DNA from: a virus
Strand: one strand, 5' to 3'
DNA length: 23,394 bases
Virus record (IMG/VR): IMGVR_UViG_3300042465_000693
Coordinates: 1-23,394 of that record
Shown: in pieces, positions 3,132-23,394 of the stretch
Numbering within the stretch: the first letter of the stretch is position 1
Layout: the number at the start of each line of letters is the position of its first letter
The notes under the pieces: model-generated
The model's input: the letters and a program-made list of their open reading frames with translations, nothing else
Told to the model about the DNA's origin: nothing
The model's database searches: none
Program-made: the position numbers and the translations under genes

Positions 3132-3941
3132 TTATGGATAACTTTTCATAATATCCGCCTCTGCAGCAAATAATTCTACCTTGTCGGTATTAGTATTCTG
3201 AAGGGTGAATGTGCAGTAGTGACCCAATACTCCGTGAGATTCAGCCACCGAGTTCTTAATGTATAAGAAATAAGCTGTTTGAGATGGTATAGGATAGACT
3301 GCCCCTGCAATTGTAGAGTCAATAGTTAACCTATTAACACCAAAAGGAGGAAGAACATAGTTTACTTCAATATTAGTTACTTGCCCTGCAAGCACCAACG
3401 CAGTTGAAGGAGGTATTGCATAGTACACGTAGTCGCCTATGCTAATAATGCTTCCTATAACTACTAATGGGTTCATAGAGAAAAATATTACTTGTGCTGT
3501 ATTAGGACCTGAAACTGCAATGCTTCTACCTATACCATTTAATGACCTTAATGGGTATTGGTCTGGCGATGCCGGCACCGTTCCTGAGTTTCTGACAAAT
3601 GCAAAATAAGACTGCTCCTTCTTAGAAAACCAACTATAATCAACAAACCCTGTGGTTTGAATGTCAGTAGTTAAAGTTGCAGCCCAAGCGTCGTCACCCT
3701 CTAAGTTTAAAGTCTTAAATAATTTATTCTCAAGAGGAGCATCATTAAATACACTTGTTAGTTGTGAAAAATATTGGTTCCCGTAGAAATTATTCCTAAC
3801 CGCATTGACGTTATGACGATACAAATTACCTCCTTTAAATGTATAGAAGTAATTGTTCATCCCAATCATCCAATCAGGTTGGAATGAGTAAAATGATACC
3901 CATCCTTTAGCCGATTCACTATATGTTAATGTATATTCCAT
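3132..3941 (-). CDS. Tail-tip/muzzle-associated structural protein, 269 aa
   Basis: The first 100 residues carry a pattern that I recognise from large-phage tail proteins: an aromatic-rich N-terminus (GWVSFYSFQPDWMIGMNN, about 12-29), then FYTFKGGNLYRHN and RNNFYG (about 32-54), then LFKTLNLEGDDAW (about 74-86). This block appears in crAss-like and other tail-stabilisation or tail-tip proteins. The rest (about 110-269) is strand-rich with Val, Ile, Thr and Tyr and no catalytic signature. The gene lies ten bases downstream of the Cys-rich protein and after the giant tail gene, which supports assembly onto the distal tail. I infer a tail-tip or muzzle-attached component; the exact position in the particle cannot be read from the sequence. 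Confidence 0.65.
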   Translation of the reverse strand: MEYTLTYSESAKGWVSFYSFQPDWMIGMNNYFYTFKGGNLYRHNVNAVRNNFYGNQYFSQLTSVFNDAPLENKLFKTLNLEGDDAWAATLTTDIQTTGFVDYSWFSKKEQSYFAFVRNSGTVPASPDQYPLRSLNGIGRSIAVSGPNTAQVIFFSMNPLVVIGSIISIGDYVYYAIPPSTALVLAGQVTNIEVNYVLPPFGVNRLTIDSTIAGAVYPIPSQTAYFLYIKNSVAESHGVLGHYCTFTLQNTNTDKVELFAAEADIMKSYP

Positions 3942-19203: not shown

Positions 19204-19432
19204 TATCTATCGAGTCAAGAGCTTCCTCTTCTAATTCAATTCTACTTAATATCTCAAATGCATCGAAGATAGCTAATTTCTTAGTCGCAGCAGCGTTCTT
19301 TAATTTATCTGCAGCTAAATCATCTTCTGAATTTGGTTTAATAATTTCTTCCTTTGCAACTTTTATAAGTTGCTCTACAGCTAATCTGCCCGCCTCAATT
19401 ATTTTTTTCTTAATTTCTTTTGAATCTCTCAT
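19145..19432 (-). CDS. Small terminase subunit candidate, 95 aa
   Basis: A short, highly charged, all-helical protein directly upstream of the large terminase and overlapping it by 59 bases in another frame. Visible helices are about 3-30 (KEIKKKIIEAGRLAVEQLIK) and about 40-72, with AADKLKNAAATKKLAIFDAF and ILSRIELEEEAL. I recall this Ala/Lys-rich core from genes adjacent to terL in Bacteroidota phages. Position, size and helical content suggest the DNA-recognition subunit, but no winged or helix-turn-helix signature is clear, and the C-terminal 20 residues may be shaped mainly by the overlap. Its start overlaps the stop of the 187-aa gene as ATGA. It could instead be an unrelated packaging cofactor. 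Confidence 0.6.
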   Translation of the reverse strand: MRDSKEIKKKIIEAGRLAVEQLIKVAKEEIIKPNSEDDLAADKLKNAAATKKLAIFDAFEILSRIELEEEALDSIDNGNKKTDTRQGFAERRSRQ

Positions 19433-19992
19433 AACTTAATTGTTATTTGATGGTCAAACATTCTGTACAATTTTTCTCCGTCTACCTCAAACTCATACTC
19501 GCTATCAGGTTTAAAGCAAACCTTGTCGCCCGCCATAACTCCGTAGTCTATTAATGTTTTATTAGGATAGACCATAAGCCCCATTAATGGTTCCTCACTA
19601 AGATGTTTTTTAATGTATGAATCTTCGGCAGCAATTGGCTTTACAAAGCAATACTTATCGTACGCATTCCAACTATCTTCGTGCTTATACATAAAGAATT
19701 GGTCGGGCTCGATAAGAAAGATGTCGTCTTTAAAAAAACTTTTACCGCTCTTTTGACGACCCCTCATATCATTATAAAACTTAAATACGTTGTGATGTAC
19801 GAGTAGTGTATCCCCAACCTGAACAGGTCCCGAATATCTTAGAGGAGTTTCAATAACCTCGGCATAGCGATTAGAAAACATATGGTCTTCTTCGGATGTA
19901 CTGACAATAAATTCAATACCCCCTATGCTCTTTGTGTTATCGTATCTTTTCCCCTTCATTGGTTTAACTATGAAGTAGAATGGAGATTTCAT
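19429..19992 (-). CDS. Tandem GroES-like (Cpn10-fold) protein, candidate phage co-chaperonin, 187 aa
   Basis: Two consecutive halves each resemble the co-chaperonin GroES barrel. Half 1 (about 5-103) has YFIVKPMKGKRYDNT, then KSIGGIEFIV (21-30) in the place of the GroES mobile loop (KSAGGIVL in E. coli), then AEVIETPLRYSGPVQVGDTL (44-63) in the place of GEVLAVG...VKVGDIV, and ends DDIFLIEPDQFFMY. Half 2 (about 112-187) repeats the order: KYCFVKPI, MGLMVYP, then GVMAGDKVCF (151-160), and DGEKLYRMFDHQITIKL (171-187), close to the GroES ending DGEEYLILRESDILAI. Only half 1 keeps a clear GGI loop. Both ends couple to neighbours (TAATG upstream, ATGA downstream). I infer a chaperonin partner for capsid folding, as T4 gp31 is; a structural protein with a GroES-like fold is the alternative. 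Confidence 0.6.
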   Translation of the reverse strand: MKSPFYFIVKPMKGKRYDNTKSIGGIEFIVSTSEEDHMFSNRYAEVIETPLRYSGPVQVGDTLLVHHNVFKFYNDMRGRQKSGKSFFKDDIFLIEPDQFFMYKHEDSWNAYDKYCFVKPIAAEDSYIKKHLSEEPLMGLMVYPNKTLIDYGVMAGDKVCFKPDSEYEFEVDGEKLYRMFDHQITIKL

Positions 19993-20748: not shown

Positions 20749-21216
20749 TTAAAGGTATGGTATGTATTGTGTTTTTCCTTTTACTCTTACAGCTTTTAAC
20801 GCCTGTTTACGCTTTCTTTTTGTAGAAAACGATACGTGAACCCAATCAGGATTTGCATCCGTTCCAAACTCCCAAATTAATTGGTCGAACTCTAAATGGT
20901 CTTTAATGTAGTCAAAAACCATCTTATTAGATACGCCTGTGCCTCTACCGTCTTGGTCTAAGTCGGCTGCCTCGCCTAAGCAGTGTTGTGATGTAGGGCT
21001 TGAACCGGGAGTTGCATCATTTAAAGCCTTTGAGCGGTACCCTGAGGATACCCAAATAGGCTTATCAAAATGCTCACGCACCTTGTCTAATACGTTTGTA
21101 GCTAATAATTTTAAGCACTCTAAGTGTGCAGGCGTTGGGTCATTCTTAATACCTAAACGCTTTGCAGTCGAAGATGGTGTTAGTTCAGCTAATGTGAAAT
21201 GCTCTGATAGTTTCAT
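20749..21216 (-). CDS. M15-family zinc peptidase, probable endolysin, 155 aa
   Basis: The protein matches the peptidase M15 (D-Ala-D-Ala carboxypeptidase-like) pattern used by many phages to cut peptidoglycan cross-links. Zinc ligands are visible as H78 and D85 in SQHCLGEAADLD (SxHxxGxAxD) and H127 in PDWVHVSF. E116 in IWEFG is a likely catalytic residue. The lead-in SEHFTLAELTPSSTAKRLGI (4-23) and the substrate-side VSSGYRSKALN (57-67) are also standard for the family. There is no signal peptide, so release needs a holin; the membrane protein two genes upstream fits that role. Its ATG shares four bases (ATGA) with the stop of the 39-aa gene, so translation is probably coupled. A virion-associated lysin is the less likely alternative. 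The basic tail (KRKRKQALKAVRVKGK) may bind the wall. Confidence 0.88.
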   Translation of the reverse strand: MKLSEHFTLAELTPSSTAKRLGIKNDPTPAHLECLKLLATNVLDKVREHFDKPIWVSSGYRSKALNDATPGSSPTSQHCLGEAADLDQDGRGTGVSNKMVFDYIKDHLEFDQLIWEFGTDANPDWVHVSFSTKRKRKQALKAVRVKGKTQYIPYL

Positions 21217-21332
21217 CGTCCTTGTCCTCTATATTTTTTAGGTTGTAAACTTTTAGCCTTTGAATGCCTACCGCTCTTGCGCTTACCGAAGTTAACTTTA
21301 ATCTTCTCCGATAGTACCTTTGTCTTTGCCAT
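21213..21332 (-). CDS. 39-aa strongly basic small protein between holin and endolysin
   Basis: A complete small frame, ATG at 21332 to TGA at 21213, below the usual ORF length cut. It begins MAKTKVLSEKIKVNFGKRKS, continues GRHSKAKSLQPKKYRGQ and ends GR. About 14 of 39 residues are Lys or Arg, with one Glu as the only acidic residue. Three facts support it: its stop overlaps the endolysin start as ATGA, its start overlaps the holin-like gene by 35 bases in another frame, and I recall small KxNFGKRKxG...KKYRGQGR-type proteins in Bacteroidota phages. Without it there would be an unexplained 81-base gap in a cassette that otherwise has almost none. Function is unknown; binding to nucleic acid or to the acidic membrane surface would suit the charge. 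Confidence 0.75.
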   Translation of the reverse strand: MAKTKVLSEKIKVNFGKRKSGRHSKAKSLQPKKYRGQGR

Positions 21333-21498
21333 TATTATTAAACTTTTGAATTTCGTTAATAGTTCTTGCTAAGGTATAGCCTATGGTAGCTAATAAAATA
21401 ATCGTCTGTAGAGTTTCGTTAATGGTAGTGACACGCATTGCAACCATACAAAGCGCATTAATCCCAATAACTTTTACATCTTCAATATATAGCATCAT
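21298..21498 (-). CDS. Two-helix membrane protein, holin-like, 66 aa
   Basis: Two hydrophobic segments are visible: about residues 9-23 (KVIGINALCMVAMRV) and about 30-45 (LQTIILLATIGYTLAR), joined by a short polar loop, followed by a charged tail (NEIQKFNNNGKDKGTIGED). Size, two membrane segments, a charged C-terminus and location just upstream of the peptidase fit a class II-type holin that would release the endolysin. Two ATG codons stand in tandem (21498 and 21495); the first overlaps the previous gene's stop as TAATG, the second would shorten the protein by one residue, a dual-start arrangement known from holins such as lambda S (there with a longer offset). A general small membrane protein is the alternative. 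Confidence 0.65.
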   Translation of the reverse strand: MMLYIEDVKVIGINALCMVAMRVTTINETLQTIILLATIGYTLARTINEIQKFNNNGKDKGTIGED

Positions 21499-21656: not shown

Positions 21657-21865
21657 TACTTAATTTTTAAAGGTGTTAAATCTTCGTTTGTCCAATAATC
21701 TTTGGCTAACATAATTTCCAAATGCTCCAAATTTCTTTGGATTGTTTTTTCCTCATCTTCAGTCAAAGTTTCTTTTGCTTTTAACTCATTTACAAGGTTT
21801 ACGCTATCTAATGCCGAAGCATAATTAATTGCGATTTGTTCGATTGTTATTTCTATTTTTTCCAT
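21656..21865 (-). CDS. 69-aa small protein downstream of the fibre gene
   Basis: A helical, acidic protein: MEKIEITIEQIAINYASALD (1-20), then LVNELKAKETLTEDEEKTIQ (about 24-43) and RNLEHLEIMLAKDYWTNEDL, ending TPLKIK. No membrane segment or catalytic motif. Its start overlaps the fibre stop and its stop overlaps the 52-aa gene start, each as TAATG. Small genes directly after fibre genes are often fibre chaperones or assembly factors, and a helical acidic protein would suit that, but I know no characterised homologue. Confidence 0.65.
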   Translation of the reverse strand: MEKIEITIEQIAINYASALDSVNLVNELKAKETLTEDEEKTIQRNLEHLEIMLAKDYWTNEDLTPLKIK

Positions 21866-23394
21866 TATGCTTTTAATAAAATTTTATAATCCGTTCCATT
21901 AATTTTTACTGCCCAACTTCTATCAGAAACTAAAATTTCGGTCGCTACTGCACCTGCGTTTGTTCCTGCACTACCAAAAACAGCTTGGTTGTTTGCTGTT
22001 GCAGTTGCGCCACGCCCTAAAATTAGACTTCCCGAAAAATTTCCAGATTGCGTTCCTTGTCCTATTGCTGTATTATTGTTTCCTGCTGTATTTGCAGATA
22101 AGGAATTTTGTCCTACTGCTGTATTTTCAGACCCAGTTGAATTAAAATACATAGAAGCTCTTCCAATTGAGGTATTAAATGCACCAGTAGTATTAGTAAA
22201 TGATGATTGGTCGCCTATTGCAGTATTAGAACTTCCAGTTGAATTTTTTAACGCTTGGTAACCTATTGCAGTTATTTCTACTCCACTTGTATTGCTATAA
22301 GCAGATTCAAAACCAACTGCAGTGTTATTTGATGCGGTGTTGTTTTGCAATGCAGATTTTCCAATTGCAGTATTATTACTTCCTGTAGTATTAGAAAATA
22401 AACAATCTTGCCCCATAACAACATTATTATTTCCCGTTGTGTTATTTATTGCAGAACTTATTCCTATAGCAGTATTTGATATACCCGTTGTATTGTAAAA
22501 TAATGAGCTATTACCTATTGCGGTGTTATTTACTCCCGTTGTGTTTGTTCTTAACGCTTGATAACCAATAGCAACTATTCCTGAACCACTTGTATTGCTA
22601 ACCCCCGCCTCAAAACCTACTGCGGTATTATTAGATGCGGTGTTAAATTGTAGTGCAGTTAAACCTACTGCCGTATTATTTGAACCCGAAACATTTATAG
22701 TTAAAGCATTGGAACCAATTGCCGTATTGTTTATACCCGTTGTTGTATTATATCCCGCACTTTCGCCGATTGATGTATTATTATTTCCCGTAGTATTTTT
22801 GAAAGATGCTTGGAATCCTAAAGCGGTATTACTATTTCCCGTTGAACTTTTCAACGCTTGATAACCGATTGCAGTTATATATAACCCCGTTGTATTGCTA
22901 TAACCTGCCTCAAAACCTACTGCGGTGTTATTTGATGCGGTGTTATTAAATAATGCAGTAGCACCAATAGCCACATTACTACTACCTGTTAAATTGTTAA
23001 ATAACGAATTAACTCCTGTCGAAGTATTGTTATTACCCGTAGTATTTGATGTTAAAGTTGCACGACCAATAGCCGTATTTCCCGTACCTAATGTACTTGC
23101 TGTTAAAGCCAAAGAACCAACGGCAGTATTATATCCCTCTATCGATAACTTCAACGCTTGATAACCTATTGCAGTTTGTTCTACTGCACTTGTATTACTA
23201 TAAGCAGCTTCAAAACCTAAAGCGGTATTATTTGATGCGGTGTTATTAAATAATGCAGTATAACCAATTGCAGTATTGTTTGAACTTGTTGTATTTGAAA
23301 ACAAACTTAAATGACCCATTGAAACATTATAAGAACCAGTTGTTGTTTGAACTTGTGATGCTCTACCAACTGCGGTGTTGCTAATACCCGTTGT
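21865..23394 (-). CDS. Repetitive trimeric-type tail fibre/adhesin, C-terminal part (gene start outside window)
   Basis: The frame stays open to the window edge (25 further codons upstream of the ATG at 23319), so that Met (VSMGHLSL) is inside the repeat and the gene is partial: at least 509 residues. Nearly all of it is a 16-17-residue repeat of the type N-T-A-[IV]-G-x-x-A-L-x-x-N-T-T-G-x-N, like the head repeats of YadA/Hia-type trimeric adhesins and similar phage fibres, expected to form a left-handed beta-roll trimer. The last 55 residues form a different cap: LILGRGATATANNQAVFGSA, then TNAGAVATEILVSDRSWAVK and INGTDYKILLKA, an ending that I recall from Bacteroidota phage and prophage fibres. 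No S74 chaperone domain is present. The four genes after it are coupled to its stop. Virion fibre versus host-surface adhesin cannot be settled without the N-terminus. Confidence 0.85.
   Translation of the reverse strand, partial: TTGISNTAVGRASQVQTTTGSYNVSMGHLSLFSNTTSSNNTAIGYTALFNNTASNNTALGFEAAYSNTSAVEQTAIGYQALKLSIEGYNTAVGSLALTASTLGTGNTAIGRATLTSNTTGNNNTSTGVNSLFNNLTGSSNVAIGATALFNNTASNNTAVGFEAGYSNTTGLYITAIGYQALKSSTGNSNTALGFQASFKNTTGNNNTSIGESAGYNTTTGINNTAIGSNALTINVSGSNNTAVGLTALQFNTASNNTAVGFEAGVSNTSGSGIVAIGYQALRTNTTGVNNTAIGNSSLFYNTTGISNTAIGISSAINNTTGNNNVVMGQDCLFSNTTGSNNTAIGKSALQNNTASNNTAVGFESAYSNTSGVEITAIGYQALKNSTGSSNTAIGDQSSFTNTTGAFNTSIGRASMYFNSTGSENTAVGQNSLSANTAGNNNTAIGQGTQSGNFSGSLILGRGATATANNQAVFGSAGTNAGAVATEILVSDRSWAVKINGTDYKILLKA
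22072..23274 (-). repeat. Four tandem ~300-bp super-repeats inside the fibre gene
   Basis: The 16-17-residue repeats are grouped in a higher-order unit of six (100-101 residues). Units run 23274-22975, 22974-22675, 22674-22372 and 22371-22072. The marker GATGCGGTGTT occurs once per unit, at 22331, 22634, 22934 and 23234 (spacings 303, 300, 300). In each unit the first three repeats are conserved (ALxxNTASNN, GFExxxSNT, IGYQALK/R), while the last three vary. A fifth, cut unit begins before the window. Confidence 0.9.

Follow-up and report, generated by a model that had tools for sequence, protein, structure and literature searches.

Whether a frame of 39 codons, wedged between a holin-like gene and an endolysin gene, encodes a real protein, and what such a basic chain might do for the phage, is the question raised by this locus. 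The window (the whole stretch of DNA that was analysed, 23,394 nucleotides) derives from a crassvirus-related podovirus, probably with a host in the Bacteroidota, as judged from a crAss muzzle domain, from its terminase and portal families and from relatives among Flavobacterium and Cellulophaga phages. The muzzle protein C-terminal domain (PF25729, E = 4.9e-17) is encoded at 3132-3941 on the minus strand and ties the podovirus to crAss-like phages. On the same strand, positions 19429-19992 encode a protein of 187 aa that weakly resembles Cpn10 (E = 0.049). Its counterparts by position in elemo, phi13:2 and Panino carry a co-chaperonin annotation and always lie directly before the terminase. 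Positions 21865-23394, also on the minus strand, encode a 509-aa protein that is cut by the window end. It is made up of NTAIGYQAL-like repeats rich in Asn and Thr, has no Pfam match and might represent a head region resembling that of an adhesin or tail fibre.

A conserved, optional gene between holin-like and peptidase genes

The frame occupies positions 21213-21332 of the minus strand (stop codon counted), starts with ATG at 21332, stops with TGA and is translated into MAKTKVLSEKIKVNFGKRKSGRHSKAKSLQPKKYRGQGR. Ten Lys and four Arg residues stand against a single Glu and no Asp. The gene starts inside the upstream gene for a 66-aa holin-like membrane protein (21298-21498, minus strand), a label that comes from weak PHROG holin matches only (E = 0.1 and 0.16), and the two genes overlap by 35 nt. 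Its last codons form an ATGA stop/start overlap (21213-21216) with the downstream gene for an M15 peptidase (20749-21216, minus strand), which matches PF08291 (E = 3.6e-17) and the endolysin family phrog_894 (E = 1.5e-34). The same -4 junction is found in the viral contigs L055, L069 and L101. A very basic frame with exactly this overlap and this link to the peptidase had been described by an earlier sequence-only reading, and all three features have been confirmed on the minus strand. Two segments of the gene matter for its classification: the codons of FGKRK (21276-21290), which alignment identifies as the mark of a subfamily, and those of YRGQGR at the extreme C-terminus (21216-21233), the invariant signature of the family described below.

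A 39-codon frame alone is unremarkable, and it is its conservation as a protein that argues for a real gene. Two viral contigs encode the microprotein at the same position: the copy in L001 is identical, and the nearest variant, L002, is 92% identical and differs by seven synonymous and three non-synonymous codons (dS 0.50, dN 0.03), giving a dN/dS of 0.06. Among 44 sequences of the FGKR type, the median dN/dS is 0.16 where it is defined, and half of the pairs that were compared show saturation at synonymous sites. Diverged copies adjoin homologous peptidases in L055, L069 and L077. This strong synonymous-site bias, which the earlier reading had proposed to look for across homologues, indicates clear purifying selection on the protein sequence.

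That reading had also held that homologous loci with intact flanking genes and a disrupted or absent frame would speak against the gene. Homologues of the M15 peptidase without the frame do exist, in L004-L020, where they are 79-82% identical to that of the window, and in MW202828. No decayed frame, however, has been found among the loci examined, and the synonymous bias is strong. Since homologous M15 peptidases occur without the frame, the gene is optional. In agreement with this, the microprotein is absent from the closest sequenced relatives by terminase, namely MW202828 (TerL 77%), elemo (46%), Cellulophaga phi13:2, phi38:1, Panino and Gundel, and the motif is absent from crAss001 and phi14:2.

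The YRGQGR-tailed microproteins

The microprotein is a functional, optional phage protein of a very widespread, unnamed family. A tblastn search with the 39 residues and two relatives against a phage collection returned no match, which is uninformative because queries so rich in Lys probably do not survive the low-complexity filter, and relatives were sought by DNA patterns instead. As delimited from the sequences so collected, the family is a very large set of phage microproteins that end in KxYRGQG[RK] at the extreme C-terminus, are 35-65 residues long, consist to about a quarter or more of Lys and Arg and contain almost no acidic residues. The window protein agrees with this description in its end (KKYRGQGR, directly followed by the stop codon), in its size and charge (39 residues, 14 of them Lys or Arg and one acidic) and in the purifying selection seen against L002.

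Two scans of viral contigs with the codons of KYRGQGR-stop and PYRGQGR-stop gave at least 120 stretches each, so that at least 240 viral stretches carry [K/P]YRGQGR-stop, and all those listed are the ends of tiny basic frames, one of which runs off its contig. Among the matches listed, codon choice in the tail varies freely, Ser (AGY), which the pattern permitted at both Arg sites, is used at none of 478 sites, position -8, which was left free, is Lys in 90%, and the mean fractions of Lys/Arg and Asp/Glu are 0.33 and 0.02. The mean net charge of the family is +13.7 +/- 2.1, with a hydrophobic fraction of 0.19 and a Gly/Pro/Ser/Asn fraction of 0.29. The bodies of 185 non-redundant sequences fall into the types G-x-H-[SA]-K (71), TRQG (32), FGKR (31), TSIG/MNK (30) and others (21), and a -4 junction with the downstream gene is present at 45 of 188 non-redundant loci. 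In 49 long viral records picked on length alone, exactly one copy was found in 48 and two, near the record ends, in the remaining one; a reversed control pattern gave no match in these records. The K-form pattern matched only 42 times in 257 Gb of bacterial and archaeal genomes. About 18 of these matches read as real members, many of them on marine single-cell or bin contigs of possibly viral origin; some 24 others read as chance, six of which carry Ser.

Members are present in crassvirus-like, T7-like and T4-like phages of Bacteroidota, Pelagibacter, Methylophilales and marine cyanobacteria, including the Pelagibacter phages HTVC115P, HTVC026P, HTVC109P and HTVC008M, the Methylophilales phage Melnitz, the Flavobacterium phage immuto and Syn5 (gp19). 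The KKYRGQGR ending had been likened to small ORFs of Bacteroidota phages; the recurrence is borne out, but the distribution is far wider than that group. Members are often unannotated and none has a known function. The gene had been called unlisted and, consistently, it has matches in known phages whose copies are unannotated, as in P-SSM2 (71822-71959), Baldr (518-640) and HTVC109P (37478-37594). The P-SSM2 member (46-47 aa; 2323-2460 of L395), left unannotated by RefSeq, ends in RNRGQGK, a rare departure from YRGQGK. One representative matched 452 cyanophage records (phrog_516, unknown function). No paper containing YRGQGR or phrog_516 was found in the open literature. Since a single query yielded 452 cyanophage records, and since many pelagiphages and crassvirus-related Bacteroidota phages carry members as well, the family is probably among the commoner phage proteins of aquatic systems, although it is scattered over PHROG families of unknown function or left unannotated.

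Neighbourhood and proposed function

The microprotein is strongly basic, poor in hydrophobic residues and predicted to be disordered. AlphaFold2 predicts no secondary structure (pTM 0.14), a subfamily profile matches no solved structure in the PDB, and the 39 residues contain no transmembrane or signal-like segment. The earlier suggestion of a nucleic-acid binder is plausible from the charge and the predicted disorder. The preferred reading, held weakly at a probability of about one in three, is that the chain is disordered and binds nucleic acid, and that its C-terminus engages a host component that is conserved, perhaps the ribosome. The strongly positive charge of the microprotein suggests a partner that contains nucleic acid, and the exact preservation of the C-terminus among phages whose virion and lysis proteins are unrelated suggests that this partner is shared among hosts rather than encoded by the phage. 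The Lys/Arg/Ser/Gly-rich body of the chain would most likely bind nucleic acid, and the fixed KxYRGQG[RK] end would fit into a site of a partner that different bacterial phyla have in common, most plausibly the host ribosome or some other machine that contains RNA. The gene would be found at any place that lets it be expressed together with strongly translated modules; in the window lineage, such a module would be the lysis cassette, where the gene overlaps that of the endolysin and may be translationally coupled to it. More speculative is the idea that T4-like, T7-like and crassvirus-like phages of several bacterial phyla share one family whose YRGQG[RK] hook acts on a universal host machine such as the ribosome; if this is true, aquatic phages would possess a general peptide for taking over or tuning the host that has so far gone unnamed. 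A role at the ribosome or another RNA machine, however, leaves the enrichment beside lysis genes unexplained, and the conservation of six residues could equally reflect a maturation or sorting signal. Because the hexapeptide is invariant across distant phages, a partner search is directly testable in cultured Syn5, S-PM2, Syn9, HTVC008M, Melnitz and immuto.

The lysis-module setting noted by the sequence-only reading recurs above chance. When Pfam and PHROG families were placed over the 49 long records, an M15 endolysin was found within 2 kb of the microprotein in 11 of the 16 records having one, as compared with 2.6 expected at a random position (p about 1e-5), and of the 11 records with a phrog_3427 holin, 6 have it no more than 125 bp away, as compared with 0.5 expected within 500 bp; both families were taken from the window's own neighbours, and the match to phrog_3427 was weak. 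Among relatives of the window phage, other body types occupy this slot: the lysis cassette of L101 (TerL 80%) encodes a G-x-H-S-K type, again joined to the peptidase gene by ATGA, and L162 and L212 (TerL 74-76%) have an RPGVHAK type beside a holin. The subfamilies therefore look interchangeable. The main rival to the nucleic-acid-binding reading follows from this setting, namely that phages of diderm hosts use the microprotein as a late cationic peptide that either aids envelope breakage, as the phiKT disruptin gp28 does, or modulates release. The gene order endolysin-gp28-holin in phiKT is the same kind of slot, and every isolate host found is a diderm bacterium, in searches that cannot exclude other hosts. 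P-SSM2, Syn9 and S-PM2, which are listed as spanin-less cyanomyoviruses (PMC6139136), all carry a copy. A crude scan of the partial window detected no spanin-like pair, but related members coexist with spanin-like pairs in L094, L132, L158, L159 and L229, which makes a spanin replacement doubtful. Moreover, the microprotein contains no amphipathic or hydrophobic stretch (the best 18-mer has a mean hydrophobicity of -0.24, as compared with +0.35 for gp28), a membrane-active peptide does not require an exact hexapeptide, and many members lie far from lysis genes. In Syn5, which is T7-like, the gp19 copy lies in the replication region between the genes for RNA polymerase and SSB, indicating that the microprotein is tied neither to lysis nor to the virion. 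A lysis accessory role is little less probable than the nucleic-acid-binding reading.

As a separate observation, spanin-like pairs consisting of a transmembrane coiled-coil protein and a lipoprotein-like protein lie near M15 endolysins of Bacteroidota phages, apparently unannotated, at 3196-3785 of L028, at 2807-3441 of L040 and downstream of the microprotein in L229.

It is unlikely that the microprotein is a virion or packaging component, either a protamine-like DNA condenser or a small head or tail protein. A basic and disordered chain would suit such a role, and members are found beside terminase, scaffold/capsid and baseplate genes; the neighbours include terminase, portal and capsid/scaffold genes in Eyrgjafa and HTVC109P and gp25/gp6 in cyanophages. 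On the other hand, an invariant tail is ill-suited to unrelated capsids, and the position of the Syn5 gene is early or middle. The genome of S-CREM2 matches the motif pattern at 37.7 kb, and the microprotein is absent from the 52 proteins found in S-CREM2 virions (PMC10665884), which is weak evidence because the tryptic peptides of a Lys-rich chain would be very short and easily missed.

The overlap with the holin-like ORF and the ATGA link to the endolysin gene had suggested an antiholin or another regulator specific to the overlapping holin gene. This idea has become highly improbable, since an antiholin would be a membrane or periplasmic protein and the microprotein has neither a membrane segment nor a signal, and most genomes place it away from a holin. 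Because other members sit beside baseplate, terminase, capsid and replication genes, and because some close relatives lack the gene altogether, the microprotein is not a dedicated antiholin. Least probable of all is a regulatory leader peptide, in which ribosomes would be arrested at the nascent YRGQGR-stop and the overlapping gene downstream would thereby be controlled. Although the conservation adjoins the stop codon and the -4 junctions recur, the identity and the spacing of the downstream genes differ greatly between loci, and a leader peptide could do without a body that is basic throughout and under purifying selection.

Comparison with known systems

In a single-sequence search, 22 residues of the N-terminal extension of Thermus ribosomal protein L27 aligned with GKRKSGRHSKAKSLQPKKYRGQ at E = 0.66. 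The likeness did not reappear with the subfamily profile and failed against E. coli L27, so that mimicry of L27 was rejected and the alignment is counted as chance.

The archetype disruptin is gp28 of coliphage phiKT (Holt et al. 2022, as described in PMC12819732). According to that description, gp28, like the window protein, is a short cationic peptide encoded between endolysin and holin genes, and the window gene likewise lies within a lysis cassette, between the holin-like gene and the M15 peptidase gene. In contrast, gp28 is hydrophobic and amphipathic (43% hydrophobic, charge +7) and lacks the YRGQGR tail, whereas the window protein has no hydrophobic 18-mer and no predicted helix that could act on a membrane. 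No sequence similarity connects the two, and homology to the disruptin was rejected; the likeness is positional, not one of sequence or physics.

The closest counterpart in known phages is phrog_516 of the T4-like cyanophages. T4 itself lacks the motif, and no homologue was found among its small genes near gp25. The window protein did not match the phrog_516 HMM at E <= 1, its only match being phrog_13447 (E = 0.29). The bodies differ, KKTRQG..NTKYAATSRN in phrog_516 as compared with FGKRK in the window protein, and so do the settings, phrog_516 genes typically lying directly upstream of gp25/gp6 and the window gene in a lysis cassette. Nevertheless, phrog_516 proteins such as S-PM2p079 (47 aa) are, like the window protein, tiny and basic and end in YRGQG[RK], and both belong to the same YRGQGR set.
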